Of a stretch of 28,708 nt of DNA, positions 3,109-28,708 are shown in pieces; within the stretch, counting starts at the first letter, position 1; every line of letters begins with the position of its first letter. The notes below the pieces were generated by a model. That model searched no databases, was not told the origin of the DNA, and saw only the letters and a program-made list of their open reading frames with translations. This DNA comes from a virus, in the IMG/VR virus record IMGVR_UViG_3300007542_000127, positions 1 to 28,708 of that record. One strand, written 5' to 3'. Both the position numbers and the translations under genes were made by a program.

Positions 3109-4032
3109 ATGTCTGTACTTGATCGTTACCTAAATACTGAAAAGTACCAAGGTGAAATGCGCGATCTGGTTAATGCCCAGATCCTTAATGACAAATCACA
3201 ATGTGGTTTGTTCCTCAAAGATACTGCACTCTCTCGCATTGGTTGGACTGGTAAAGTTAGCCAGTTTCCTAAAGCAGAAGAGTACACCCACACCTATAAC
3301 AATGGTGACAAAAACGATGGAATCTTTTTCAAGACTCCTCGTATGGTCATCCTCCACTGTGGCTTCCGTAAGGACGTAACCTTCATCGAGAACTCTGATA
3401 AGGGTCAGATTGAAGGCATGTATCCCCGTGATGCATCCGTCTATGACGAGTGGGAAGTAGCTAACCCTGGTAAGCCCCACCCTTATCGTCGTCGTCGCCT
3501 CATCCTCATGTTCCTGGTGGATGAGAATGGTGTTGCTGTGCACAAGAAGCCACTGATCCTCTCGATCCATGGCGGTGCATCCAACCTGTTCTGTGATGCT
3601 TACTCCACGTTCATTGAGCAGTTGGAGTCTGCTTTTGCAAATCGCATGGGTCTGAAGTCTGCTGCTGGTTTTGATGCCAAGCAGAGTGCTGCTGCAATCT
3701 TCACTCCGACATTTGGTTCACAGCTGTATGGCGGTGAGCGGGCGAAGAGCTGGATTGCTTACCCTGAGAAGTGGGTTACCCCCACTGCTGAGAAGGTCGA
3801 GGACTTCTTCCCTAAAGATGCATCTGACATTGACTTCATTGAAGATGTTTGGGAGACCTGCCCTCCTACCGTTTATGCAGACAGCTTCTTCAAGCAATGC
3901 GAGAAGGAGATTGGCTACCATGCTATCAAGCCTGGCCTTGATTTCACGCTGCCTCCAGTGGAATCCAGTGGTGCTAGCTCCCGTGTCCTGACCGGTGCAC
4001 GTGATCCAGAGACAGGTGAGATCGAGCTTTGA
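3109..4032 (+). CDS. DUF5895-like hypothetical protein, 307 aa
   Basis: The protein begins MSVLDRYLNTEKYQGEMRD. The pattern of a conserved QILND...CGLFL segment, then HTYNNGDKNDGIFF and TPRMVIL, followed by a long basic-turn region (PYRRRRLILMFLV) and LILSIHGGASNLFCDAY, resembles what I remember of DUF5895, a family of unknown function from cyanobacteria and their plasmids and phages. That link is from memory and is tentative. It is soluble with no membrane segment, and the C-terminus ends acidic. It directly follows ssb and is closed by a strong terminator, so a DNA metabolism role such as ssDNA handling is suggested by position only. The ATG at 3109 lacks an evident Shine-Dalgarno site. Confidence 0.75.
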   Translation: MSVLDRYLNTEKYQGEMRDLVNAQILNDKSQCGLFLKDTALSRIGWTGKVSQFPKAEEYTHTYNNGDKNDGIFFKTPRMVILHCGFRKDVTFIENSDKGQIEGMYPRDASVYDEWEVANPGKPHPYRRRRLILMFLVDENGVAVHKKPLILSIHGGASNLFCDAYSTFIEQLESAFANRMGLKSAAGFDAKQSAAAIFTPTFGSQLYGGERAKSWIAYPEKWVTPTAEKVEDFFPKDASDIDFIEDVWETCPPTVYADSFFKQCEKEIGYHAIKPGLDFTLPPVESSGASSRVLTGARDPETGEIEL

Positions 4033-6710: not shown

Positions 6711-7469
6711 TTAACGACCGCGGCTGCCGCCCTTACGACCGCCCATTCCCTTGCGACCATTGCCAGAACTCTTGCGAGTCTGACCGGTTGCTTCCCTCAG
6801 ACCAGAAATACGCTTGGCTGAGATGCCGCCAGGAGTCCTGCGGCTTTTCTTTTTCTCGCCTGATTCACTCTTAGAACCGTACTTTGCCTTAGCAGCTTCA
6901 ATGTACTGTTCGTACTTAGCTTGTGCTTTCTCTTTACGAGCTAACAAACGTTCACGGCGGCGATCAAACGCTTCCTGTTGAGCTGGAGTTAACTCACGCC
7001 GTTCTTTTGAGCCACGCTCAGAACGATTCTCTCTTGCTGCCTTTAAGCGGTCTAATTTTGAACGCCGGGCTTCAGCATTGTCGCCACGGAACATACGCTC
7101 TTCCCCGTTGGCACGACGAGGACCTGCACCGCCTTTACGACCTTGGCCGCGACCGCCCATTCCACGAGGAGTACGTTCCTCTCCATCAGCACGACGAGGA
7201 CCTAAGCCAGCCTTGCGACCTTGGCCACGACCGCCCATTCCACGAGGTGTGCGCTCTTCTCCGTCCATACCACGAGGAGTGCGACCGCCTACACCACGTT
7301 CGCCTGCTGCTTTACGACCAGCACCTTTGCGACCTTGGCCAGGACCACGCGTACCTTCTCCACGTGCTTTACGGCCCTGACCTTTACGGCCTTGGCCCCT
7401 ACCTCCCGTAGAAGGTGCACCGCCGCCTAGAAAATTTTCTGCGGATTCGGTAAGAATAAATTCATTCAT
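6711..7469 (-). CDS. Arg/Gly-rich repeat protein, 252 aa, disordered
   Basis: The start is firm: AAAGGAG (7482-7476) lies six bases before ATG 7469, the best ribosome binding site seen in the window. Residues 1-15 (MNEFILTESAENFLG) are ordinary. Residues 16-130 are Gly/Arg/Lys-rich, with a repeated block near GEERTPRGMGGRGQGRK containing GRGQGRKG. Residues 131-195 are charged and helical (RRSKLDRLKAARENR, AKAKYEQYIEAAKAKYG), and residues 196-252 return to a basic tail ending GRKGMGGRKGGSRGR. The layout suggests RGG-box-like nucleic-acid binding and a disordered protein with a helical core; this is inference. It shares GRGQGRKG with the 784-aa protein. A 12-codon frame (7500-7462) overlaps its start and could couple translation. 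Confidence 0.8.
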   Translation of the reverse strand: MNEFILTESAENFLGGGAPSTGGRGQGRKGQGRKARGEGTRGPGQGRKGAGRKAAGERGVGGRTPRGMDGEERTPRGMGGRGQGRKAGLGPRRADGEERTPRGMGGRGQGRKGGAGPRRANGEERMFRGDNAEARRSKLDRLKAARENRSERGSKERRELTPAQQEAFDRRRERLLARKEKAQAKYEQYIEAAKAKYGSKSESGEKKKSRRTPGGISAKRISGLREATGQTRKSSGNGRKGMGGRKGGSRGR

Positions 7470-8840: not shown

Positions 8841-11195
8841 ATGCCTACAAGAAACTCAGGTGGTGGAGGTTCTAGATCCGCTCCAGCACCTGCACCAAGG
8901 GCAGCTGCACCTCCTCCCCGTGTATCAGCCCCGGCTCCGCAAACTGCTTTTATCAGTACAGTTGCGTCTTCTCCACAACAGTTTGTACCTCCTAAAACTC
9001 AAGGAGGTGGTAATGCTGCTAACCGAAACCAAGCACCAAAAAATCAAGGTGGCGGTGGTGGCAACCGAAACCAAGGTCCTAAGAACCAAGGTCCTAAGAA
9101 CCAAGGTCCTAAGAACCAAGGTCCTAAAAACCAAGGCGGCGGTGGTGGCAATCGCCAAGGCGGTAACCGCTCAACTCCAACTGCTGCTCCGCCTCCTAGT
9201 GCAGGACAAAATCGCCAAGGTCCTAAAAACCAAGGTCCTAAAAATCAGGGCCAAGGTCGTAAGAATCAAGGTGGTAGAGGACAAGGTGGCAAAGGTCAAG
9301 CCGGTGCTAATCCATTTGTTGACGTAGCAAATAGAACTGGAAACGACGGTCGTCAGCGTGGCCAAGGAGGTGGTCGTGCTGGTCAAGAACGTGGTGGCCA
9401 GGAAATGATGGGTCGTGGTCGCGGCCAGGGCCGTAAAGGCGGTGGCGGTCGTGATGATCGTCAAGGTCAAGGCGGTCGTGGTGGTCGTAACCGCGATGAA
9501 ATGATGGGTCGTGGTCAAGGGCAGGACCGTGGCGGTCGTGGTCAAAGGCAGGACCGTGGCGGTCGTAACCGCGATGAAATGATGGGTGGCGCAGGCGAAA
9601 ACATGCGTGATCGCATGGGTCGTCGTAACCGCAACCGTCGTGATCGTGGTGGCGCAGCCGGTGAAGACCAAGGTTTTGATCAAGGTTCAGAAGATCAAGG
9701 TTTTGACCAAGGTTCAGAAGATCAAGGTTTTGATCAGGGTTCTGATGAAAGCTTTGATCAAGGTTCTGAAGATCAAGGTGGCGCAGAAGAAACTCCTCCT
9801 GATGCCAATGAATTCCTTGATAATTTCATTGAAGAAACTGGTGCAGGACAAGAAGAATCTCCTCAACCTGCCCAAGAAGAAGAGCAACCTACAAGGACTC
9901 AAGAAACAACCTCTACTCAATCGGAAGCACCTGCTTCTGGTGGAGGTGGCTTCGGTATCCAAGGTCTCCTCTCTGCAGAAGAACAGCAAAAAGCTGGCGG
10001 TAGTAATGCTGCTGCTGCATTAGCAGCTGCTCAAGCACGACGCCGCGCTTCTGGTAGCGATGGTGGCGGTTCTACTCCTGCTCCTACACCTGCACCTGCT
10101 CCTACTCCAGGACCTAAAAGAGCTCCTACTCCTCCACCTAAACAAGGCCCCACACGTCAGCCTGGACAACAAGGTGGTCAAGCTGGTGGTCAAGCTGGTT
10201 CACAACCTGCAAGACAGCCTGCAAGACAGCCTGGACAAGGCGCTGCTGGTGGACAAGCTGGTGGCCAGGCTGGTGAAAGTTTTGATCAAGGCGGTACTGA
10301 TCAGACAGGTACTGATCAAACTGGTACTGATCAAACTGGTGGCCAGGAAGAAGCTGGGGGTGGCCGTACCCGTCGTGAACGTCGTCAAGATCGCCGTGAA
10401 GAACGCCAGCAAGATCGTCAAGGTGGCGGTCGTCAAGATCGTCAAAGCGGTCGTGGTGGTCGCGGTGGTCAAGAACGCGGTGGCCAAGAACAAGAAGGCG
10501 GTCGCGGTGGCCGAAACCAAGGCCGTAAAGGTCAAGGTGGTAAAGGCCAAGGCGGTAAAGGACAGGGCGGCAAAGGTCAAGGTGGAAAAGGTCAAGGTGG
10601 AAAAGGACAAGGCGGTAAGGGCCAAGGTGGCAAGAACCGCAACATGCCCTTTAACCCCATGGACCAACCATCTAAAAAACAAGGTGGTAAGGGTCAGGGC
10701 AATAAGGGACAAGGCGGTAAAGGCCAAGGACCTAAAGGCCAAGGTGGCAAGAAACAAGGTGGAAAAGGTCAAGGTGGTAAAAACCAAACGACACAGTTTG
10801 ACTTCTTGCCACAACCCGGTAAAAAACAAGGCGGCAAAAACCAAGGTTCTAAAGGCCAAGGTGGTAAAAACCAAGGTAGTAAAGGCCCTGGACCCAAAAA
10901 TCAACCTGCTAAAAAGCAAGGTGGTAAAGCTCCCGCACCCAAGAACCAACCTCCTAAAAAACAGAGTGGTAAAGGTGGTGTTGGAAGCCAAGCACCTAAG
11001 GGTCAAGGTGGAAAGGGTCAGGGTGGAAAAAACCAAGGACAAAAAGTTCCTTTCATTCCTCCCAAAAACCAGCCTCCTCAAAACCCACCGCCTAAGAGCC
11101 CACCTCCCAAGAGCCCCCCTCCTAAAGGGCAAGGTAACAAGGGCCAAGGTGGTAAAAACCAAGGTGGCAAAGGACAAGGCGGTAAGAAACGTTAA
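8841..11195 (+). CDS. 784-aa low-complexity repeat protein, intrinsically disordered
   Basis: Begins MPTRNSGGGGSRSAPAPAPR, with no good ribosome binding site. Blocks in order (approximate residues): Pro/Ala-rich (10-50); GPKNQ repeats with GGGG spacers (55-155); RGQGG/GRNRDEMMG blocks with GRGRGQGRKG (170-270); acidic EDQGFDQGS repeats (275-312); acidic Gln/Glu segment holding the only ordinary-looking stretch, DANEFLDNFIEET (320-360); Ala/Pro/Gln linkers (390-480); TDQTG repeats (484-500); Arg/Glu/Gln-charged part (508-560); then about 220 residues of KGQGG-type units. Strong alternation of positive and negative blocks suggests a phase-separating or scaffold-like chain; this is inference. 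No cysteines or membrane segments. It could be a virion or nucleic-acid organiser. Long frames in other phases within it are by-products of the repeats. A terminator follows. Confidence 0.85.
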   Translation: MPTRNSGGGGSRSAPAPAPRAAAPPPRVSAPAPQTAFISTVASSPQQFVPPKTQGGGNAANRNQAPKNQGGGGGNRNQGPKNQGPKNQGPKNQGPKNQGGGGGNRQGGNRSTPTAAPPPSAGQNRQGPKNQGPKNQGQGRKNQGGRGQGGKGQAGANPFVDVANRTGNDGRQRGQGGGRAGQERGGQEMMGRGRGQGRKGGGGRDDRQGQGGRGGRNRDEMMGRGQGQDRGGRGQRQDRGGRNRDEMMGGAGENMRDRMGRRNRNRRDRGGAAGEDQGFDQGSEDQGFDQGSEDQGFDQGSDESFDQGSEDQGGAEETPPDANEFLDNFIEETGAGQEESPQPAQEEEQPTRTQETTSTQSEAPASGGGGFGIQGLLSAEEQQKAGGSNAAAALAAAQARRRASGSDGGGSTPAPTPAPAPTPGPKRAPTPPPKQGPTRQPGQQGGQAGGQAGSQPARQPARQPGQGAAGGQAGGQAGESFDQGGTDQTGTDQTGTDQTGGQEEAGGGRTRRERRQDRREERQQDRQGGGRQDRQSGRGGRGGQERGGQEQEGGRGGRNQGRKGQGGKGQGGKGQGGKGQGGKGQGGKGQGGKGQGGKNRNMPFNPMDQPSKKQGGKGQGNKGQGGKGQGPKGQGGKKQGGKGQGGKNQTTQFDFLPQPGKKQGGKNQGSKGQGGKNQGSKGPGPKNQPAKKQGGKAPAPKNQPPKKQSGKGGVGSQAPKGQGGKGQGGKNQGQKVPFIPPKNQPPQNPPPKSPPPKSPPPKGQGNKGQGGKNQGGKGQGGKKR
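9075..9134 (+). repeat. 15-bp tandem repeat, 4 copies (GPKNQ codons)
   Basis: The unit GGTCCTAAGAACCAA occurs four times head to tail, with the last copy carrying one G-to-A change. It encodes GPKNQ. Near identity at DNA level, including third positions, points to recent expansion by slippage or unequal recombination rather than selection on protein alone. Confidence 0.95.
9663..9767 (+). repeat. 27-bp tandem repeat encoding EDQGFDQGS
   Basis: Three 27-base units (9663-9689, 9690-9716, 9717-9743) encode EDQGFDQGS with few silent changes, followed by a shortened 24-base unit (DESFDQGS). They form the acidic block of the low-complexity protein. A single FDQGG remnant recurs near 10281, so the block may have been copied within the gene. 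Confidence 0.9.
10293..10337 (+). repeat. 15-bp tandem repeat, 3 copies (GTDQT codons)
   Basis: The unit GGTACTGATCARACW is present three times in a row, encoding GTDQT. Silent differences are limited to two positions. It separates a neutral Ala/Gln linker from the charged Arg/Glu/Gln part of the same protein. Confidence 0.9.
10524..10635 (+). repeat. degenerate 15-bp repeats encoding KGQGG
   Basis: Seven or more units of the form GGHAARGGHCARGGH encode KGQGG in tandem, and similar but interrupted copies continue to the end of the gene (KNQGG, KKQGG, KGQGP). Third positions vary widely (GGT, GGC, GGA; AAA, AAG), unlike the GPKNQ block, so this array looks older, with selection keeping the amino acid pattern. 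Confidence 0.85.
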
Positions 11196-19837: not shown

Positions 19838-20047
19838 ATGAAAACTGTAACCTACAAGGAACTTGAGGAAAGGTTTGATGAGATCTTCGAGGATGTAGTT
19901 GAGAACCACATCCACTACAAAATAATAACAGAAAATAACAAAGCAGTTATGCTTATTCCCTACCAAGAATATAGCGTTTTAATGGATACCTATACCCAGT
20001 GGGTAGAGCAGAAAGAAGAAATCTTATCAGAAGATAATCTATTCTAA
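19838..20047 (+). CDS. Phd/YefM-type antitoxin, solitary, 69 aa
   Basis: The protein begins MKTVTYKELEERFDEIFEDV and continues HYKIITENNKAVMLIPYQEY then SVLMDTYTQ. The strand MKTVTY, helix, ITxxNxxxVMLxPYxEYxxL pattern matches the N-terminal DNA-binding domain of Phd/YefM antitoxins. These neutralise Doc, YoeB or related toxins and autoregulate their operon. The length (69 aa) is near the lower end for the family; the C-terminal toxin-binding tail is short and acidic (EEILSEDNLF). No toxin gene is adjacent: the flanks are a structural-like gene upstream and a convergent minus-strand gene. It may neutralise a host toxin or act as a regulator. No ribosome binding site is evident. Confidence 0.75.
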   Translation: MKTVTYKELEERFDEIFEDVVENHIHYKIITENNKAVMLIPYQEYSVLMDTYTQWVEQKEEILSEDNLF

Positions 20048-22744: not shown

Positions 22745-22966
22745 ATGGAAGACGACAAAGTAAATCATCCTTCGCACTATACGTTCGGTCCAATAGAGTG
22801 CATTGACGCTATCGACTCCTCTTCAACAACAGAGGCATATCGTGGTTATTTAAAGGGATGCATCATGAAATATATCTGGCGATACGAAGCAAAAGAGAAT
22901 CCAATTCAAGATCTACGCAAGGCAAACTGGTATTTAAACCGGTTAATTAATACTTATGGAACCTAA
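22745..22966 (+). CDS. DUF3310-like protein, 73 aa
   Basis: The protein begins MEDDKVNHPSHYTFGPIECI and continues YLKGCIMKYIWRYEAKENP then QDLRKANWYLNRLI. This is the characteristic DUF3310 pattern: DxVNHPxHYxxGxIExIDxI, then a conserved GNxxKYxxRxxxKxNxxxDLxKAxxYLxxLI helix pair. The family is widespread in phages, and its biochemical function is not established, though it is often annotated near nucleotide-metabolism genes. The start lies 29 bases downstream of the divergent minus gene start. The 3' end overlaps a 47-aa frame by 11 bases. Confidence 0.85.
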   Translation: MEDDKVNHPSHYTFGPIECIDAIDSSSTTEAYRGYLKGCIMKYIWRYEAKENPIQDLRKANWYLNRLINTYGT

Positions 22967-23099
22967 TTATCCAGTGATTGATCTAACTCCAGAGGAATTA
23001 AACTACTTGCAAATCTTAGAGCTTCAAGCTGCTCTAGATCATCTTGAGAATAAAGTGAACGAGATCCAGTTGACTTTGGACGTTGATTCCAGAGCCTAA
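22956..23099 (+). CDS. candidate small coiled-coil protein, 47 aa, antisense overlap
   Basis: ATG 22956 gives MEPNYPVIDLTPEELNYLQI and a leucine-rich helix LELQAALDHLENKVNEIQ, with leucines and isoleucines at coiled-coil spacing, ending at TAA 23097-23099. The start overlaps the DUF3310 stop by 11 bases. It runs antisense to the last 137 bases of the lysozyme-like gene, so one of the two may be longer than real. Its composition is that of a genuine small protein. No ribosome binding site is visible. Confidence 0.4.
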   Translation: MEPNYPVIDLTPEELNYLQILELQAALDHLENKVNEIQLTLDVDSRA

Positions 23100-23703
23100 A
23101 AAACTCATCAATAATTTCATGTTTAGGATCAAGCCTAAGCAAGTGTTCTTCTAAAAATTCAATAGCTTTAACTTGAGTTGGAGAACCATTAAAGTTCTCT
23201 GCAATATTAAGCAGACACTTTGGTAACTTACAGTTGTGCTTCACCAGTAGGGGCACATCTGTATCTGGTTGTAAATAAACATCTAATTCACTGCGTCTAC
23301 GCTCTAGTAAGCGTTGATTACGTAGACATTCTTTATTGATATAAGGAGACCATTCTTTTATAATCTCTTCTCGATTTGCACCACTATTAATTAACTGGAG
23401 TAACCTGCAGTCTTTAAACTTAGTGATGCCAATACTGTAGGCATAACTTAAAATTGCACCTTTCTTCTTTTCATTTAAAGGCATAAAGATAAGGTCCTGC
23501 AGGATAAAAACAAACTCCTCCAGGTCTTTCTCCAGCTGGATTTCAATCTGTTTACGTGTGCAACGCAAGAAGGGCGTGACAGCACTGCGCCCTATTCGCT
23601 TACTACCGTAACCAATCATCCACGGACCGTCTTCCTTGGCCCGATATGGAGAGTACTGCTCCATGCCAGTGTGGATCCGACAGGGTGTGTACCGCCGGAT
23701 CAA
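22963..23703 (-). CDS. lysozyme-like protein with degenerate active site, 246 aa
   Basis: From about residue 28, WMIGYGS, then QIEIQLEKDLEEFVFILQDL, then KKKGAILSYAYSIG and SPYINKECLRNQRLLERRRS follow the helical order of GH24 (T4/lambda-type) lysozymes. By eye LIRRYTPCRIHT at the start aligns with LIKEFEGLRLKS of the intact endolysin at 26938-28182, placing Thr where the catalytic Glu belongs and Met where the catalytic Thr belongs (WMIGYG versus WTIGWG). Homologous residues INEYSLQ continue upstream of the first standard start (TTG 23703) to CTG 23731-23733, so a non-standard start is possible. The C-terminal 100 residues are unrecognised. A binding or structural role is more likely than hydrolysis. 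Confidence 0.65.
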   Translation of the reverse strand: MIRRYTPCRIHTGMEQYSPYRAKEDGPWMIGYGSKRIGRSAVTPFLRCTRKQIEIQLEKDLEEFVFILQDLIFMPLNEKKKGAILSYAYSIGITKFKDCRLLQLINSGANREEIIKEWSPYINKECLRNQRLLERRRSELDVYLQPDTDVPLLVKHNCKLPKCLLNIAENFNGSPTQVKAIEFLEEHLLRLDPKHEIIDEFFRLWNQRPKSTGSRSLYSQDDLEQLEALRFASSLIPLELDQSLDN

Positions 23704-24408: not shown

Positions 24409-24576
24409 TCAGATTGTAGTTGTATTTCGTAACGGTATATACCTCTGATCAACGGCAAAGGAAGGGGTCCCCATGTAGCCGAGGTCTTCATCAGAGCCTT
24501 CAACCATTGGCGGTAAGGCCATGGTAACAAGCGTTTTGTAACGCTCAAGCAGCTGTTCCGGAGTAGGGTTCATCAT
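24409..24576 (-). CDS. hypothetical small protein, 55 aa
   Basis: The ATG at 24576 overlaps the stop of the beta-rich gene upstream by four bases (ATGA) and gives MMNPTPEQLLERYKTLVTMA followed by LPPMVEGSDEDLGYMGTPSF and AVDQRYIPLRNTTTI. An N-terminal helix is followed by a Pro/Gly/acidic segment and a basic tail. Position and coupling to the 113-aa gene support coding. No family is recognised. The 57-base gap that follows has no supported feature. Confidence 0.55.
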   Translation of the reverse strand: MMNPTPEQLLERYKTLVTMALPPMVEGSDEDLGYMGTPSFAVDQRYIPLRNTTTI

Positions 24577-24914
24577 GCTGCAGCAACTTGGAAGCTCACA
24601 GTGGCATCAGTACCGCCAGACTCTGTAATAAAAACAGGACGAATCCACTTTACTGGACGCCCAGTTACTGAAAATACAGAAGCGCCATTTGCTGCAACTC
24701 GCTGGCTAGCAATGATAGGAACAAAGTTAGTACCATCAATACTACCATCTAACGAAACATCTACATGGCTATTAACATTAGCAACGATAACAATCAAAGT
24801 ATAACTTTGAGTTGAGAAAGTATTATTAACAGCAACTTGTAATAAATTACCGTTGCCAGGTGCTGTTAATGTTGGGCTGATATCAAAAATTGTATCTTGA
24901 AAGTAAGTAACCAT
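24573..24914 (-). CDS. beta-rich, probably virion protein, 113 aa
   Basis: The protein begins MVTYFQDTIFDISPTLTAPG and continues with alternating strands and turns: SYTLIVIVANVNSHVDVSLDG, SIDGTNFVPIIASQRVAANG, VTGRPVKWIRPVFITESGG and TDATVSFQVAAA. The SLDGSIDGTNFVPI pattern is like small structural or decoration proteins of phage heads or tails (Ig-like beta sandwich). It is another Thr/Ser/Gly-rich all-beta protein of the minus module. The ATG overlaps nothing upstream (4 bases after the Dps stop), and its stop overlaps the 55-aa gene. Confidence 0.6.
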   Translation of the reverse strand: MVTYFQDTIFDISPTLTAPGNGNLLQVAVNNTFSTQSYTLIVIVANVNSHVDVSLDGSIDGTNFVPIIASQRVAANGASVFSVTGRPVKWIRPVFITESGGTDATVSFQVAAA

Positions 24915-24918
24915 GGTG

Positions 24919-25377
24919 TCAGCCTAAGTTAGATTTTAAAAGCCACTGGAATTTTTTATGAGCGCGGCCACGCTCTACAGCTAAGTCTAAGGTCAACTGA
25001 TCTTTTAAAACTTCAGCTTCTTCTGCAAGTTGGTTAAATGATTCTGCCAAACCATTATGGTTAATAGCAAGTGCACGAATCATCCCATCCTGATCAAAGC
25101 AGCTCTCAGGAATGGGAGGCATGGGCGAACTATTGAGATCCTCAACGCTAAGCGGTGTGCTGATATCAAGAGAGCGCAGGTGTTCTGCAATAGTATCTAA
25201 ACCCTCTTGCATTTCTTCATAAATCTCTTGCGTTAATTTATGAATGGAATAAAACTTACTGCCCATCAGATTCCAGTGGACAATATAAGTTTGATTCAAC
25301 AGATGTGATGTATCCCGCAGAAGCTGGACAAGATGGCAGTAACAAACTGCCTTGGGTTCCATTTTTGCTTTAGCCAT
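24919..25377 (-). CDS. Dps-like ferritin family protein, 152 aa
   Basis: The start at ATG 25377 gives MAKAKMEPKAVCYCHLVQLL; a GTG four codons upstream is possible. The key region reads YIVHWNLMGSKFYSIHKLTQ then EIYEEMQEGLDTIAEHLRSL, the Dps pattern HWNxxGxxFxxhHxxhxxhYxEhxxxhDxhAERIRxLG. Numbered from the GTG, H38, H50, D65 and E69 occupy ferroxidase positions, while Q54 stands where many Dps proteins have Asp (E. coli D67), so the iron site may be weakened. Dps dodecamers store iron and bind DNA, protecting it from peroxide. The basic N-terminus (MAKAKMEPK) fits DNA binding. Phage Dps genes are known but uncommon. It lies between a virion-type gene and the DUF6321-like gene. Confidence 0.8.
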   Translation of the reverse strand: MAKAKMEPKAVCYCHLVQLLRDTSHLLNQTYIVHWNLMGSKFYSIHKLTQEIYEEMQEGLDTIAEHLRSLDISTPLSVEDLNSSPMPPIPESCFDQDGMIRALAINHNGLAESFNQLAEEAEVLKDQLTLDLAVERGRAHKKFQWLLKSNLG

Positions 25378-25382
25378 TGGTT

Positions 25383-25670
25383 TTACCACTTAACTTTGTG
25401 GCTCCAGTAACGAGCCGACATCTTATCTGGGTTGGGATCTTGTGCGTTATGTCTAGCATAATATGATTTCTTTCTTGCTTTATCTTTAGCAGTCTTAGGA
25501 TTTTTACCTGCTCCTTGTACTCCCTGCTGACCAAAGCGGATAATCTTTTCTTTACCGCCTTCACATGCTTTAACCACGTGTGATTTGGTCGGGTGGTTAG
25601 GAGTACGCTGTGGTTTGTTGCAAGCCATTCGATCCTTAGCTAGCTTTTGTGCTTTAGCTCGATCTGCCAT
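25383..25670 (-). CDS. DUF6321-like protein, 95 aa
   Basis: The protein begins MADRAKAQKLAKDRMACNKP and continues QRTPNHPTKSHVVKACEGGK then EKIIRFGQQGVQGAGKNPKT and MSARYWSHKVKW. KPxRTPNHPxKSHVVKAxEGGKEKIIRFGxQGVxxAGK with a terminal WxxKVKW is the pattern I recall for DUF6321, common in cyanophages, cyanobacteria and other phages; a virion function is suspected in that family. It is basic and compact. It ends six bases before the Dps gene start and begins a few bases after the 70-aa gene stop, all on one operon. Confidence 0.8.
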   Translation of the reverse strand: MADRAKAQKLAKDRMACNKPQRTPNHPTKSHVVKACEGGKEKIIRFGQQGVQGAGKNPKTAKDKARKKSYYARHNAQDPNPDKMSARYWSHKVKW

Positions 25671-25674
25671 GGCA

Positions 25675-25887
25675 TTAACCGTAATAATTGCGATATCTTT
25701 CTTTGCTGGTAATCTCCATACTTGGGATACCTACACCAATAATTTTGCGGTACTCAGGAATACGTTCTGTTTTTAATTCAGCAATAACAGCATCTGGATC
25801 AGGAGGCGGCATTAAACCCTTCTGTTGCATGAAGTCTTTCAAAAAGACTTCTGGCGTTGGTTCTGCTTCGTCCCCTGGATACATCAT
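25675..25887 (-). CDS. hypothetical protein, 70 aa
   Basis: The protein begins MMYPGDEAEPTPEVFLKDFM and continues QQKGLMPPPDPDAVIAELKT then ERIPEYRKIIGVGIPSMEIT and ends RYRNYYG. It is acidic and Pro-rich in the first half and mixed later. Its ATG overlaps the HNH nuclease stop by four bases (ATGA), so it is translated from the same transcript. I do not recognise the family; the position suggests a role next to the DUF6321-like protein. Confidence 0.6.
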   Translation of the reverse strand: MMYPGDEAEPTPEVFLKDFMQQKGLMPPPDPDAVIAELKTERIPEYRKIIGVGIPSMEITSKERYRNYYG

Positions 25888-26261
25888 GCTGTTACAACAG
25901 AATCAATAAAACTAAATAAAGATACAGTCTGTGGTTTTTGATTAAGCCACTCTTTAATTTTACTTGCTCTCTCCTCAGAATAAAAAGAATGCTTGCTAGT
26001 AAACCAGTTAAATGGTAGCTCAGATGCTTTTGATTTATTACAAGAGGTGCAGCAGCAAACAAGGTTATTGCGTGTGCTGTGACCTCCTTTATGTTTAGGG
26101 ATTACGTGGTCAATGGTTGCAGTGCGATCACAAAGTTGCTTTTCACAGTAAGCACATTTGTAATGCCAGGCTTCAAATATAGATTCTCTGAATTTCTTGC
26201 GTGCACATTTAGGACTAAGAACAATTAAGTTAGCTAGTAAATCGTTCTCACTATGGAACAT
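25884..26261 (-). CDS. HNH endonuclease, 125 aa
   Basis: The protein begins MFHSENDLLANLIVLSPKCA. The nuclease core reads CAYCEKQLCDRTATIDHVIP then KHKGGHSTRNNLVCCCTSCN, with the zinc CxxC pairs (CAYC and CTSCN), catalytic DH, KHKGG and N (NNLV). This is the McrA-type HNH order: D-H, N and a second zinc Cys pair. It cuts DNA; in phages such genes are free-standing homing endonucleases or packaging-linked nucleases. It is the first gene of the minus operon running to 24919, about 70 bases from the tRNA-Leu on the other strand. Homing activity is not shown. Confidence 0.85.
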   Translation of the reverse strand: MFHSENDLLANLIVLSPKCARKKFRESIFEAWHYKCAYCEKQLCDRTATIDHVIPKHKGGHSTRNNLVCCCTSCNKSKASELPFNWFTSKHSFYSEERASKIKEWLNQKPQTVSLFSFIDSVVTA

Positions 26262-26331: not shown

Positions 26332-26413
26332 GGGAGTGTGGCGGAATTGGTCTACGCTGCGGATTTAAAATCCGCTGGTCTTTGACCTTGTGGGTTCGAG
26401 TCCCACCGCTCCT
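26332..26413 (+). tRNA. tRNA-Leu (anticodon UAA)
   Basis: The acceptor stem GGGAGTG pairs with CGCTCCT (26407-26413) including two wobbles, and the T arm GTGGG-TTCGAGT-CCCAC is canonical. The anticodon stem GCGGA/TCCGC encloses the loop TTTAAAA, placing TAA at positions 34-36. A variable arm GGTCTTTGACC is present, as expected for Leu. CCA is not encoded, as usual in cyanobacteria. It decodes TTA (and TTG), frequent in this phage. Confidence 0.93.
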
Positions 26414-26417
26414 ATCT

Positions 26418-26491
26418 CGGGATGTAGCTCAGTTTGGTCAGAGTGCTGCGTTTGGGACGCAGATGCCGCAGGTTCAAATCCTGTCATCCCG
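26418..26491 (+). tRNA. tRNA-Pro (anticodon UGG)
   Basis: The acceptor stem CGGGATG pairs with CATCCCG (26485-26491), followed by discriminator A; the T arm GCAGG-TTCAAAT-CCTGT (one G-U pair) is typical. The anticodon stem CTGCG/CGCAG encloses loop TTTGGGA, giving TGG at 34-36, which reads CCA. It lies four bases after the tRNA-Leu gene, so both are processed from one transcript. CCA is not encoded. Its 3' end overlaps the stop of a minus-strand gene by eight bases. Confidence 0.94.
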
Positions 26492-26693
26492 ATTCTTCAT
26501 CTGCAGGGTCATACTCTGCATCTTCTAATAGTTTCAAAATGAAGTGGTGGATTCGATCCGTCACCCACCGTAGATCTTCATCAGAAATATCACAGATAAT
26601 TGCGTCCAAACGGAGTTCACGCGAGGGTTCTCGAACATGATCTGCAATTAACTCCAGTGCTCGATAACGACCTGGCGTGAACTCTCCCAACAT
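26484..26693 (-). CDS. hypothetical acidic protein, 69 aa
   Basis: ATG 26693 shares one base with the preceding stop (TGATG) and gives MLGEFTPGRYRALELIADHV followed by REPSRELRLDAIICDISDED and LRWVTDRIHHFILKLL. It is acidic and helical with a short C-terminal acidic tail. Its stop lies in the 3' end of the tRNA-Pro gene on the other strand. I do not recognise the family. It is the second gene of a two-gene minus unit downstream of the endolysin side. Confidence 0.6.
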   Translation of the reverse strand: MLGEFTPGRYRALELIADHVREPSRELRLDAIICDISDEDLRWVTDRIHHFILKLLEDAEYDPADEESG

Positions 26694-26937: not shown

Positions 26938-28182
26938 TTACTTTAAGTCAATCCACCAGCCCGTACCTTCTCCTTCTACCATCCAGCGCCTATAGAAGAA
27001 GTTGTAGGTATAGAGCACTTCTTTACCATTGGTTGTTTTGTATTCGCCAGTGTAGTTGTCAAGTTGTCCCCAGGGGTCATGGACAATGAACTTCTTGGCT
27101 TCATCCTGGTAACCAATCACACAGATCCAGTGACCACTACCTGTGGGGGCATTGGCAGGGCCTTTGTGGAGGATACCAACTGGACAGGGTACATCTTCAT
27201 CGAGGCGTTGCTTGAGCTCTTCGATGGTGCCATTCTGTTTGAATTTAGGACTAAAGCCAAGGCTTTGGAGAACTTTGAGTTGAGTGGCCACTTCAACAGT
27301 GTCACCAATAGCAAAAACCTTTTTAAGATAATCATTATCAGTACTGATGCAACCAGGGCGTAGGTACATGGCAGCCATGGCGCAAGCAGAGGAGAAGCAA
27401 GTACGGCTTGCATCTCTATAGTTATCACGCTGTGATTGATAGGGAACAGCTAATTTAACGCCATCATATTTAATCTCTGCTTTATCTTTAGGGTGATTAA
27501 GAACACCTTTTAATCCATACCAGTGTTCATCAAAAACCCACCAGGTACCTAGGTTATAAGGGAATACAAGCTGTGTATGTTTATCTTTTTTAGCAATAAC
27601 TTCTACACCTTTATAGCTGCGATCTTCTTTGATGCGCACCTTTTGATCCGGCCTTAGATCACCACTGGGAATTGGTTCTTTTTTAAGAAAGGTATCAACA
27701 GTACATGTAATATCAATTTCATTTTGCTTCTGTTTCTCTGCTCGACCTGAAGTAAACAGTAGAACTTCTTTCTTTCGCCGCTCTACTAAACCTGGGAGAG
27801 TGACACCATGATCACCCTTAACCCACTTAGGTAACTCTTCTTCTGCAACTTTATTAGGATCTTCGTTGTTATTAAGACGCTTCCTTAAGGTAGAACGCTC
27901 TAATGCGCCAGCACCACAGTTGTATGTGAAGGAGACTAAGGCATCAAACTGTGCCTGGTTAATCCTAGCAACAACCAGATCTTGTACGGCCCGTTCAAAC
28001 TGCGCTACATCAGCACGGAGAAACCGATCAGCTTGGTCTTCGCTGATGGTCATATTGGCTTTTACATCAGGGCCAGTGTGTCCCCAGCCAATAGTCCAGA
28101 CGCCAGCTGGACAAAGGTAGCTCTTTAAGCGGAGTCCTTCAAATTCTTTGATAAGTGCTAGGCCAGCATCGGAGATCCGCAT
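26938..28182 (-). CDS. modular endolysin: GH24 lysozyme plus C39-like peptidase, 414 aa
   Basis: Residues 1-145 form a T4/lambda-type GH24 lysozyme: IKEFEGLRLKSYLCPAGVWT then IGWGHTG, with catalytic E15, C24 and T30 at the family spacing (E-8-C-5-T). Residues about 160-235 form an SH3-like linker with strands (YKGVEVIAKKDKHTQLVF). Residues 240-414 resemble a C39-like papain-fold peptidase: VPYQSQRDN, TCFSSACAMA (C262), GHWICVIGYQ (H351) and FIVHDPWG (D369), a Cys-His-Asp set. The lysozyme would cut glycan chains and the peptidase may cut peptide cross-links. No signal peptide or membrane segment, so a holin would be needed. A perfect TATAAT -10 (28211-28206, minus strand) lies 23 bases upstream. 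Confidence 0.9.
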   Translation of the reverse strand: MRISDAGLALIKEFEGLRLKSYLCPAGVWTIGWGHTGPDVKANMTISEDQADRFLRADVAQFERAVQDLVVARINQAQFDALVSFTYNCGAGALERSTLRKRLNNNEDPNKVAEEELPKWVKGDHGVTLPGLVERRKKEVLLFTSGRAEKQKQNEIDITCTVDTFLKKEPIPSGDLRPDQKVRIKEDRSYKGVEVIAKKDKHTQLVFPYNLGTWWVFDEHWYGLKGVLNHPKDKAEIKYDGVKLAVPYQSQRDNYRDASRTCFSSACAMAAMYLRPGCISTDNDYLKKVFAIGDTVEVATQLKVLQSLGFSPKFKQNGTIEELKQRLDEDVPCPVGILHKGPANAPTGSGHWICVIGYQDEAKKFIVHDPWGQLDNYTGEYKTTNGKEVLYTYNFFYRRWMVEGEGTGWWIDLK

Positions 28183-28245: not shown

Positions 28246-28617
28246 CTACTGAGGTTTAACTGGCCATACAACTGTTTCTGGAAAATTTTGTTGCTGAGGA
28301 ACATCTAGAAGTGCTTGCCTGTAAGTTCGCCAGGAATCCTGTAATTGTGCATTCATTGATTCCCAACGCAAAGGATTAAGCACATCAACCTCTTCTTTTA
28401 AAAGTTGGTTGCGCTGCTCTCTTAAGCTTTTTGCTTTCAAGGCTAATAGCTCTTGCTCTGTTAATGCGTTTGGATTCTTAAAAGCGTTTCCATCGTATTC
28501 CCAGCCAATACCCGCATTGCCTTGAAGCTGGACCCATCCTTGACTATTAGCAAAATCGGCTTCTGCAACTGCGGTATTAACAACGATACCGTTTTCGATA
28601 ATTGCGTAATTAGACAT
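28246..28617 (-). CDS. tail fibre assembly-like / tail-associated protein, 123 aa
   Basis: ATG 28617 (MSNYAIIENGIVVNTAVAEA) is chosen over a start four codons upstream. The N-terminal strands (YAIIENGIVVNTA, GWVQLQGNAGIGWEYDGNAF) and the C-terminal helical part, ending with the YRQALLDVPQQQNFP then ETVVWPVKP motif, match the shape of small proteins linked to phage tail fibres (R-x-x-LL...Y-R-x-x-L-x-x-x...FP...WP). The exact family is not certain. Its start follows the stop of the Gly-rich protein gene to its right with two bases between them, so the two are coupled, supporting a tail role. Confidence 0.65.
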   Translation of the reverse strand: MSNYAIIENGIVVNTAVAEADFANSQGWVQLQGNAGIGWEYDGNAFKNPNALTEQELLALKAKSLREQRNQLLKEEVDVLNPLRWESMNAQLQDSWRTYRQALLDVPQQQNFPETVVWPVKPQ

Positions 28618-28619
28618 GA

Positions 28620-28708
28620 TTACACCCATTGAATACGTACAAGACCGTCTGAGCCAGATTGGGCACTTCCAAGAGCACCTCCTCCTGCACCGCCGCCACC
28701 TGGAGAGC
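28620..28708 (-). CDS. C-terminal fragment of a Gly-rich tail protein
   Basis: The frame ending in TAA at 28620-28622 is open to the right edge and reads SPGGGGAGGGALGSAQSG then SDGLVRIQWV in its 29 complete codons. A Gly-rich stretch ending in a GLVRIxW motif is a common C-terminus of phage tail fibre and tail structural proteins. It lies directly upstream of the tail-associated gene on the same strand. Nothing of its N-terminus is seen, so size and exact identity are open. Confidence 0.6.
   Translation of the reverse strand, partial: SPGGGGAGGGALGSAQSGSDGLVRIQWV

Follow-up and report, generated by a model that had tools for sequence, protein, structure and literature searches.

Dps is a small protein with which bacteria store iron and counter peroxide. 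A gene for a putative Dps-family ferritin in a viral genome raises the question of whether its product is a true Dps, whether a Gln in place of an acidic residue of the ferroxidase centre would disable it, where the virus acquired it and what it would do during infection. The gene studied here lies in a 28.7-kb virus record (IMG/VR record IMGVR_UViG_3300007542_000127, 28,708 nucleotides; this whole stretch of DNA is hereafter called the window), in which no head genes were recognized. An initial annotation, made by inspection of the sequence, had proposed a cyanophage-encoded Dps that would protect or compact DNA and might be packaged.

Identity and predicted fold of the gene product

The open reading frame lies exactly where it had first been placed, and the strand, which had not been given, is the minus strand (Table 1). 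An in-frame GTG at 25389 is an alternative start, yielding a 156-aa form. The protein matches Pfam Ferritin PF00210 (2.7e-13; 50.5 bits, cut-off 24.5) and PHROG 3636 (4.9e-22), and a PDB sequence search gave 71 distinct sequences at E<=1, with Dps proteins at the top (best 1.9e-14). As sequence matches, these are far above chance. The score against the NCBIfam Dps equivalog PRK09448 is 48.8, below the cut-off of 114, and by this measure the protein is outside that exact subfamily. The HWN...H...D...E signature proposed by inspection is present (HWN 34-36, H46, Q50, D61 and E65), with the 51/63/67/78/82 spacing of E. coli Dps.

Structure prediction, which the initial annotation had suggested as a check, gave the Dps layout. 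In the AlphaFold2 model, for which 47 related sequences were used (mean pLDDT 95.8), helices A (8-36), B (42-69), C (96-123) and D (127-148) form a four-helix bundle with a short BC helix (78-81) in a long loop and without a fifth C-terminal helix. The top rows of a Foldseek search with this model are all Dps, and the best solved structures in VIA-align are also Dps, with Z about 20 (~20.7 for the Dps proteins of D. radiodurans and T. elongatus). In VIA-align, mini-bacterioferritin and thioferritin score less than 1 Z unit from Dps, at 13-15% identity; because a few further 12-mer relatives of ferritin thus nearly tie with Dps, the Dps call rests on sequence motifs, not on fold alone. Foldseek, VIA-align and the sequence searches gave no better match to another four-helix family, which is ruled out because the top Foldseek rows are all Dps and the sequence searches name Dps. 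Sequence, predicted fold, ferroxidase residues and the Dps BC helix thus bear out the proposed identity: judged from sequence and model, the product of 24919-25377 is a Dps-family protein.

A separate observation concerns three uncultured-phage proteins in BFVD that are named prohead protease and are longer than Dps (A0A6J7XDU5, A0A6J7WPK9 and A0A6J7WIS1); a Dps-like region in each matches the Dps model nearly over its full length.

Table 1. Coordinates of the Dps gene, its ferroxidase codons and the surrounding genes in the window.
Feature	Position	Strand	Remarks
Lysozyme-family endolysin	22963..23703	-	Pfam Phage_lysozyme 2.1e-14
Conserved ORF, 129 aa	23739..24128	-	no family match; independent synteny probe
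Small conserved ORF, 73 aa	24131..24352	-	most conserved gene of the module
Weak DUF6385-like protein, downstream neighbour	24573..24914	-	4-base gap to the Dps stop; Pfam 0.0035, below cut-off
Dps-family mini-ferritin CDS (sequence and model)	24919..25377	-	152 aa; ATG at 25377, stop 24919-24921; PF00210, PHROG 3636, AF2 model
Glu65 codon (E. coli Glu82 equivalent)	25183..25185	-	invariant in 47 sequences
Asp61 codon (E. coli Asp78 equivalent)	25195..25197	-	invariant in 47 sequences
Gln50 codon CAA (position 67, usually acidic)	25228..25230	-	site varies among homologues
His46 codon (E. coli His63 equivalent)	25240..25242	-	invariant in 47 sequences
His34 codon (E. coli Dps His51 equivalent)	25276..25278	-	invariant in 47 sequences
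PHROG 7595/DUF6321-like basic protein, upstream neighbour	25383..25670	-	5-base gap to the Dps ATG; PHROG 7595 2.3e-31
Small ORF, 70 aa	25675..25887	-	overlaps the HNH gene by 4 bases
HNH endonuclease	25884..26261	-	Pfam HNH_5 1.5e-11
Lysozyme + C39-like peptidase endolysin	26938..28182	-	Phage_lysozyme 5e-46, Peptidase_C39_2 5.2e-8
Tail assembly chaperone-like protein	28246..28629	-	Pfam Phage_tail_APC 5.4e-14

The ferroxidase centre and Gln50

Residue invariance was scored in an alignment of 47 phage and bacterial Dps relatives (alignment A5). Four of the five canonical ferroxidase residues (H34, H46, D61 and E65) never change in it; D126 and D131, located where helix D begins and where the iron pores of Dps lie, are likewise invariant. 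The acidic residue at position 67 of the canonical centre is absent from the window Dps, in which Gln50 stands there. This is the Q54 of the initial annotation, counted from the 156-aa form; the presence of the Gln is confirmed, but not its standing as a special feature. In the phage homologues of the window group, the site is mostly Q, with E in 12 loci and K in 2 (counts that include near-duplicates), and it is G in a diverged sister group (L073, L086, L087, L089 and L110) and in the ferritin-like proteins of phages S-SRM01 and S-EIV1. In a sample of 37 cyanobacterial Dps loci, a few of them overlapping and almost all belonging to the picocyanobacterial order, 33 have Met at this site. This range of Q, E, K and G in phages and Met in cyanobacteria makes Gln50 unremarkable: on these alignments it is chemically noteworthy, not rare.

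The acidic residue 67 normally works at site B via water; in NpDps4, the residue is Asn67, which has no part in the ferroxidase centre, and the protein still oxidizes Fe(II) using O2, but showed no use of H2O2 (PMC6675082). Gln50 would cost site B one weak water-mediated ligand, a loss that Dps proteins with Asn there tolerate, and is probably not disabling. Given this behaviour of NpDps4, a solved Dps with a non-acidic residue 67, peroxide use cannot be assumed for the window Dps. The variation of position 67 within Dps (Met, Asn) also means that an acidic residue there is a mark of the canonical centre and not of the Dps family. The His-type cyanobacterial Dps proteins (NpDps4, TeDpsA and TlDps1) resemble the window Dps in their non-acidic residue 67 (Asn in NpDps4; PMC6675082), but have His78 and His164; the His-type signature at position 78 is absent from the window Dps, where this position is Asp61, invariant in A5.

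Nearly all homologues have Cys near the N-terminus (CYC or CHC), the corresponding region of the window Dps being residues 12-14. Several homologues (L023, L024, L027-L032 and L041) end in a C-terminal Cys-x-Cys (PCGCDH, DCTCQHSS or DCNC), a motif absent from the window Dps. These Cys motifs are possible metal or disulfide sites.

The virus and its probable host

The window primase is 35% identical over 98% to that of Synechococcus phage S-EIV1, and a primase of this type occurs in 10 of the 11 related contigs. A sister contig of 80.8 kb (G001) has a primase and a Dps that are both 89% identical to those of the window. Its TerL (64%), major capsid protein (70%), portal-like protein (52%) and DNA polymerase (41%) have counterparts of the stated identity in S-EIV1, and matches to that phage were obtained for 28 of its 115 called ORFs. 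The proposed cyanophage origin is upheld by this kinship, and assignment of the window virus to an S-EIV1-like cyanophage lineage is well supported at the sequence level. S-EIV1 infects a Synechococcus; because the lineage is related to this phage, we infer a cyanobacterial host, probably Synechococcus-like. A search for psbA in the 11 related contigs found none.

A late-strand module conserved around dps

The gaps of 5 and 4 bases that flank the Dps gene suggest a single transcript. The upstream neighbour had been called DUF6321-like from its sequence; its PHROG 7595 match agrees with this, and Pfam DUF6321 is reached at 0.0036, below the cut-off. This gene adjoins Dps throughout the phage Dps family; the DUF6385-like neighbour was detected in only part of the family.

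In about 50 IMG/VR contigs, the Dps gene has the same location, next to lysis genes on the late strand. In those with enough flank, the kept order is tail chaperone, lysozyme-C39 endolysin, small ORF, HNH, small ORF, DUF6321-like, Dps, (DUF6385-like), two small ORFs and lysozyme; in the diverged sister group, it is HNH-Dps-DUF6321. A search with the 129-aa ORF as probe, which picks up close relatives only, gave 17 loci, of which 14 extend as far as the Dps site; all 14 carry Dps. Two contigs of more distant kinship, L108 and L126, share the backbone but lack Dps at that site. In the Dps-less module of L108, an unrelated 193-aa ORF (3417-3998), without a Pfam match, lies between HNH and DUF6321.

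In G001, the strand that carries Dps also holds the TerL, portal-like and major capsid genes, with the genes for DNA polymerase and primase lying on the opposite one. This layout supports the late-type operon proposed initially and, as far as gene order can tell, the assignment of Dps to a late/lysis module. In the window, adjacent tRNA genes for Leu (TAA) and Pro (TGG) lie at 26332-26493 on the plus strand, opposite the late genes.

Selection and origin of the phage gene

Comparison of the window Dps with nine homologues gave dN/dS of 0.025-0.10, with dS of about 0.75-2.2; the gene is under strong purifying selection. In trees, one of them on a smaller set, the phage Dps proteins form one clade (100/100) whose stem is almost 3 changes per site long. 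It lies outside the picocyanobacterial clade, itself well supported, and closest to alphaproteobacterial Dps. Score comparisons point the same way: the window Dps reached at most 72 bits in searches covering 150 genomes from the picocyanobacterial order and 292 from the phylum, and the best alphaproteobacterium gave 86 bits. A contig search of genomes with the window Dps (P0001) alone found no relative, and a genome search with a mixed alignment gave 80 loci, the best of which were alphaproteobacterial.

Comparison with cyanobacterial Dps had been suggested as a way to trace transfer from the host, and no such transfer is seen. Recent capture from a cyanobacterial host is rejected, as the phage proteins branch outside picocyanobacterial Dps in a clade that is old and long-stemmed. 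The AU test did not reject a grouping of the phage proteins with picocyanobacterial Dps (p-AU 0.26), which leaves room for a cyanobacterial sister relation. We conclude from the trees that phage Dps would be an old acquisition, not a recent host copy.

Proposed function and alternatives

The explanation that we favour, and consider probable, is that the gene encodes a Dps mini-ferritin, a stable component of S-EIV1-like cyanophages, which would act as a dodecameric ferroxidase and, late in infection, clear the cell of Fe(II) together with peroxide. Twelve copies would form a hollow shell, which Fe(II) would enter through acid-lined three-fold pores. At the dimer interface, Fe(II) would be bound by H34 and H46 of one subunit and D61 and E65 of the next, oxidized with H2O2 or O2 and stored as ferric mineral. 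Joint removal of iron and peroxide would suppress hydroxyl radicals in infected cells exposed to light, thereby protecting the replicated phage DNA and machinery until lysis. The late timing of this action would be in keeping with the position of the gene.

E. coli Dps coats and condenses DNA through lysines of its N-terminal tail. Coating or condensing of phage or host DNA might likewise be the main job of the window Dps, with iron oxidation secondary. Most close members have two to three lysines before helix A, with a net charge of about +2 (K3, K5 and K9, net +2, in the window Dps), and the label of PHROG 3636 is 'DNA binding protein'. However, the window protein is acidic (pI 5.4; 14 K/R against 21 D/E) and its tail is only about 9 residues long. 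The basic charge is lost in the sister group, diverged members having a net tail charge of 0 or -1 and an acidic C-terminal tail instead, whereas the metal ligands never change. We regard a primarily DNA-condensing role as rather unlikely; of the two roles first proposed, protection and compaction, the latter is thus the less supported, and protection through iron and peroxide removal would be favoured. The metal ligands also bear on the converse idea that Gln50 marks a decaying centre, leaving a dead or metal-free Dps that is retained purely as a scaffold or represents a host gene in transit. One of the five canonical residues is indeed non-acidic, but the other four are invariant family-wide, dN/dS is 0.02-0.10 and most of the cyanobacterial loci sampled (33/37) have Met at the same site, so that this idea is scarcely credible.

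Two further possibilities accept an active shell but place it elsewhere or give it another use. Dps packaged in the capsid might guard the packaged DNA or bring ferroxidase into the next host; the gene shares its strand with capsid, portal and terminase genes, and the prohead-protease-named BFVD proteins with a Dps-like region provide a lead only. Against this, Dps lies between lysis genes and small ORFs, outside the head genes, and no fusion or head-binding element is seen in it, and we give packaging little probability. The shell might instead gather iron from host photosystems for metallo-enzymes or virion iron sites, a use consistent with the conserved ferroxidase and helix-D acidic residues needed for mineralization. 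Among the neighbours of Dps, however, neither an iron-release partner nor a gene for an iron enzyme was found, and late timing would leave little time for re-use; a phage iron store is accordingly very improbable. Protective removal of iron and peroxide remains the preferred reading. Within the Dps family, a more specific proposal, which we hold to be doubtful, is that of a long-established phage-specific subfamily with a non-acidic site-B residue, forming a virion-borne or late-tuned antioxidant shell whose chemistry would be unlike that of host Dps.

Relation to known Dps proteins

Bacterial Dps proteins (P. aeruginosa PA0962, 8ff9; T. elongatus Dps, 2c41; C. jejuni, 3kwo; H. pylori NAP, 1ji4) resemble the window Dps in fold, including the BC helix, over nearly the full chain (Z about 20, TM 0.83-0.89) and in the HWN/H/D/E ligands. 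The window copy differs from them by Gln for Asp/Glu 67, by an identity of only 24-29% and by being phage-borne in an old, separate clade. Picocyanobacterial Dps proteins (the order of G013) belong to the same family and mostly have the non-acidic Met at the Gln50 site, but are about 30-33% identical and form a separate clade.

Phage Dps genes have been published, and a role against oxidative stress has been proposed for those of Lactobacillus and Bacteroides 'Gratiaviridae' phages (PMC6669764, PMC8008677). The Dps proteins of these phages and of Streptomyces phages are phage-borne like that of the window, but are 24-30% identical to it and belong to unrelated lineages and hosts. In cyanophages, Dps is annotated in S-SRM01 (QPX48251) and, as a 'DNA-binding ferritin-like protein', in S-EIV1 (AHV82153), both with Gly at the Gln50 site. 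Phage Dps is thus already known, also from cyanophages, and the window gene adds one well-supported member. The S-SRM01 protein is 31% identical to the window Dps and is encoded at a different genome position. The S-EIV1 gene (L163, 18619-19173, minus strand) has no tblastn match to the window Dps at E 0.01; it is diverged, with HLN for HWN, and adjoins sulfate adenylyltransferase, a place other than that of the window gene.

Cyanophage Dps is therefore no one-off: an S-EIV1-related lineage maintains the gene at a fixed site, with strong purifying selection acting on it, and distant Dps-like copies are found elsewhere in the S-EIV1 and S-SRM01 genomes. This recurrence points to control of iron and peroxide as a repeated need in infection of cyanobacteria, and the small gene is open to direct testing.

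Other features of the window

An ORF for a Phd/YefM-like antitoxin at 19838-20047 on the plus strand falls slightly short of the Pfam cut-off (7.7e-7); it stands alone, no adjacent toxin having been noticed. Two low-complexity basic proteins were also observed. One, of 252 aa (6711-7469, minus strand), contains RGQGRKG repeats; the other, of 784 aa (8841-11195, plus strand), contains many similar short G/Q/K/N repeats (GKGQGGKGQGG), which are underlain by 15-base tandem units at 9069-11190.
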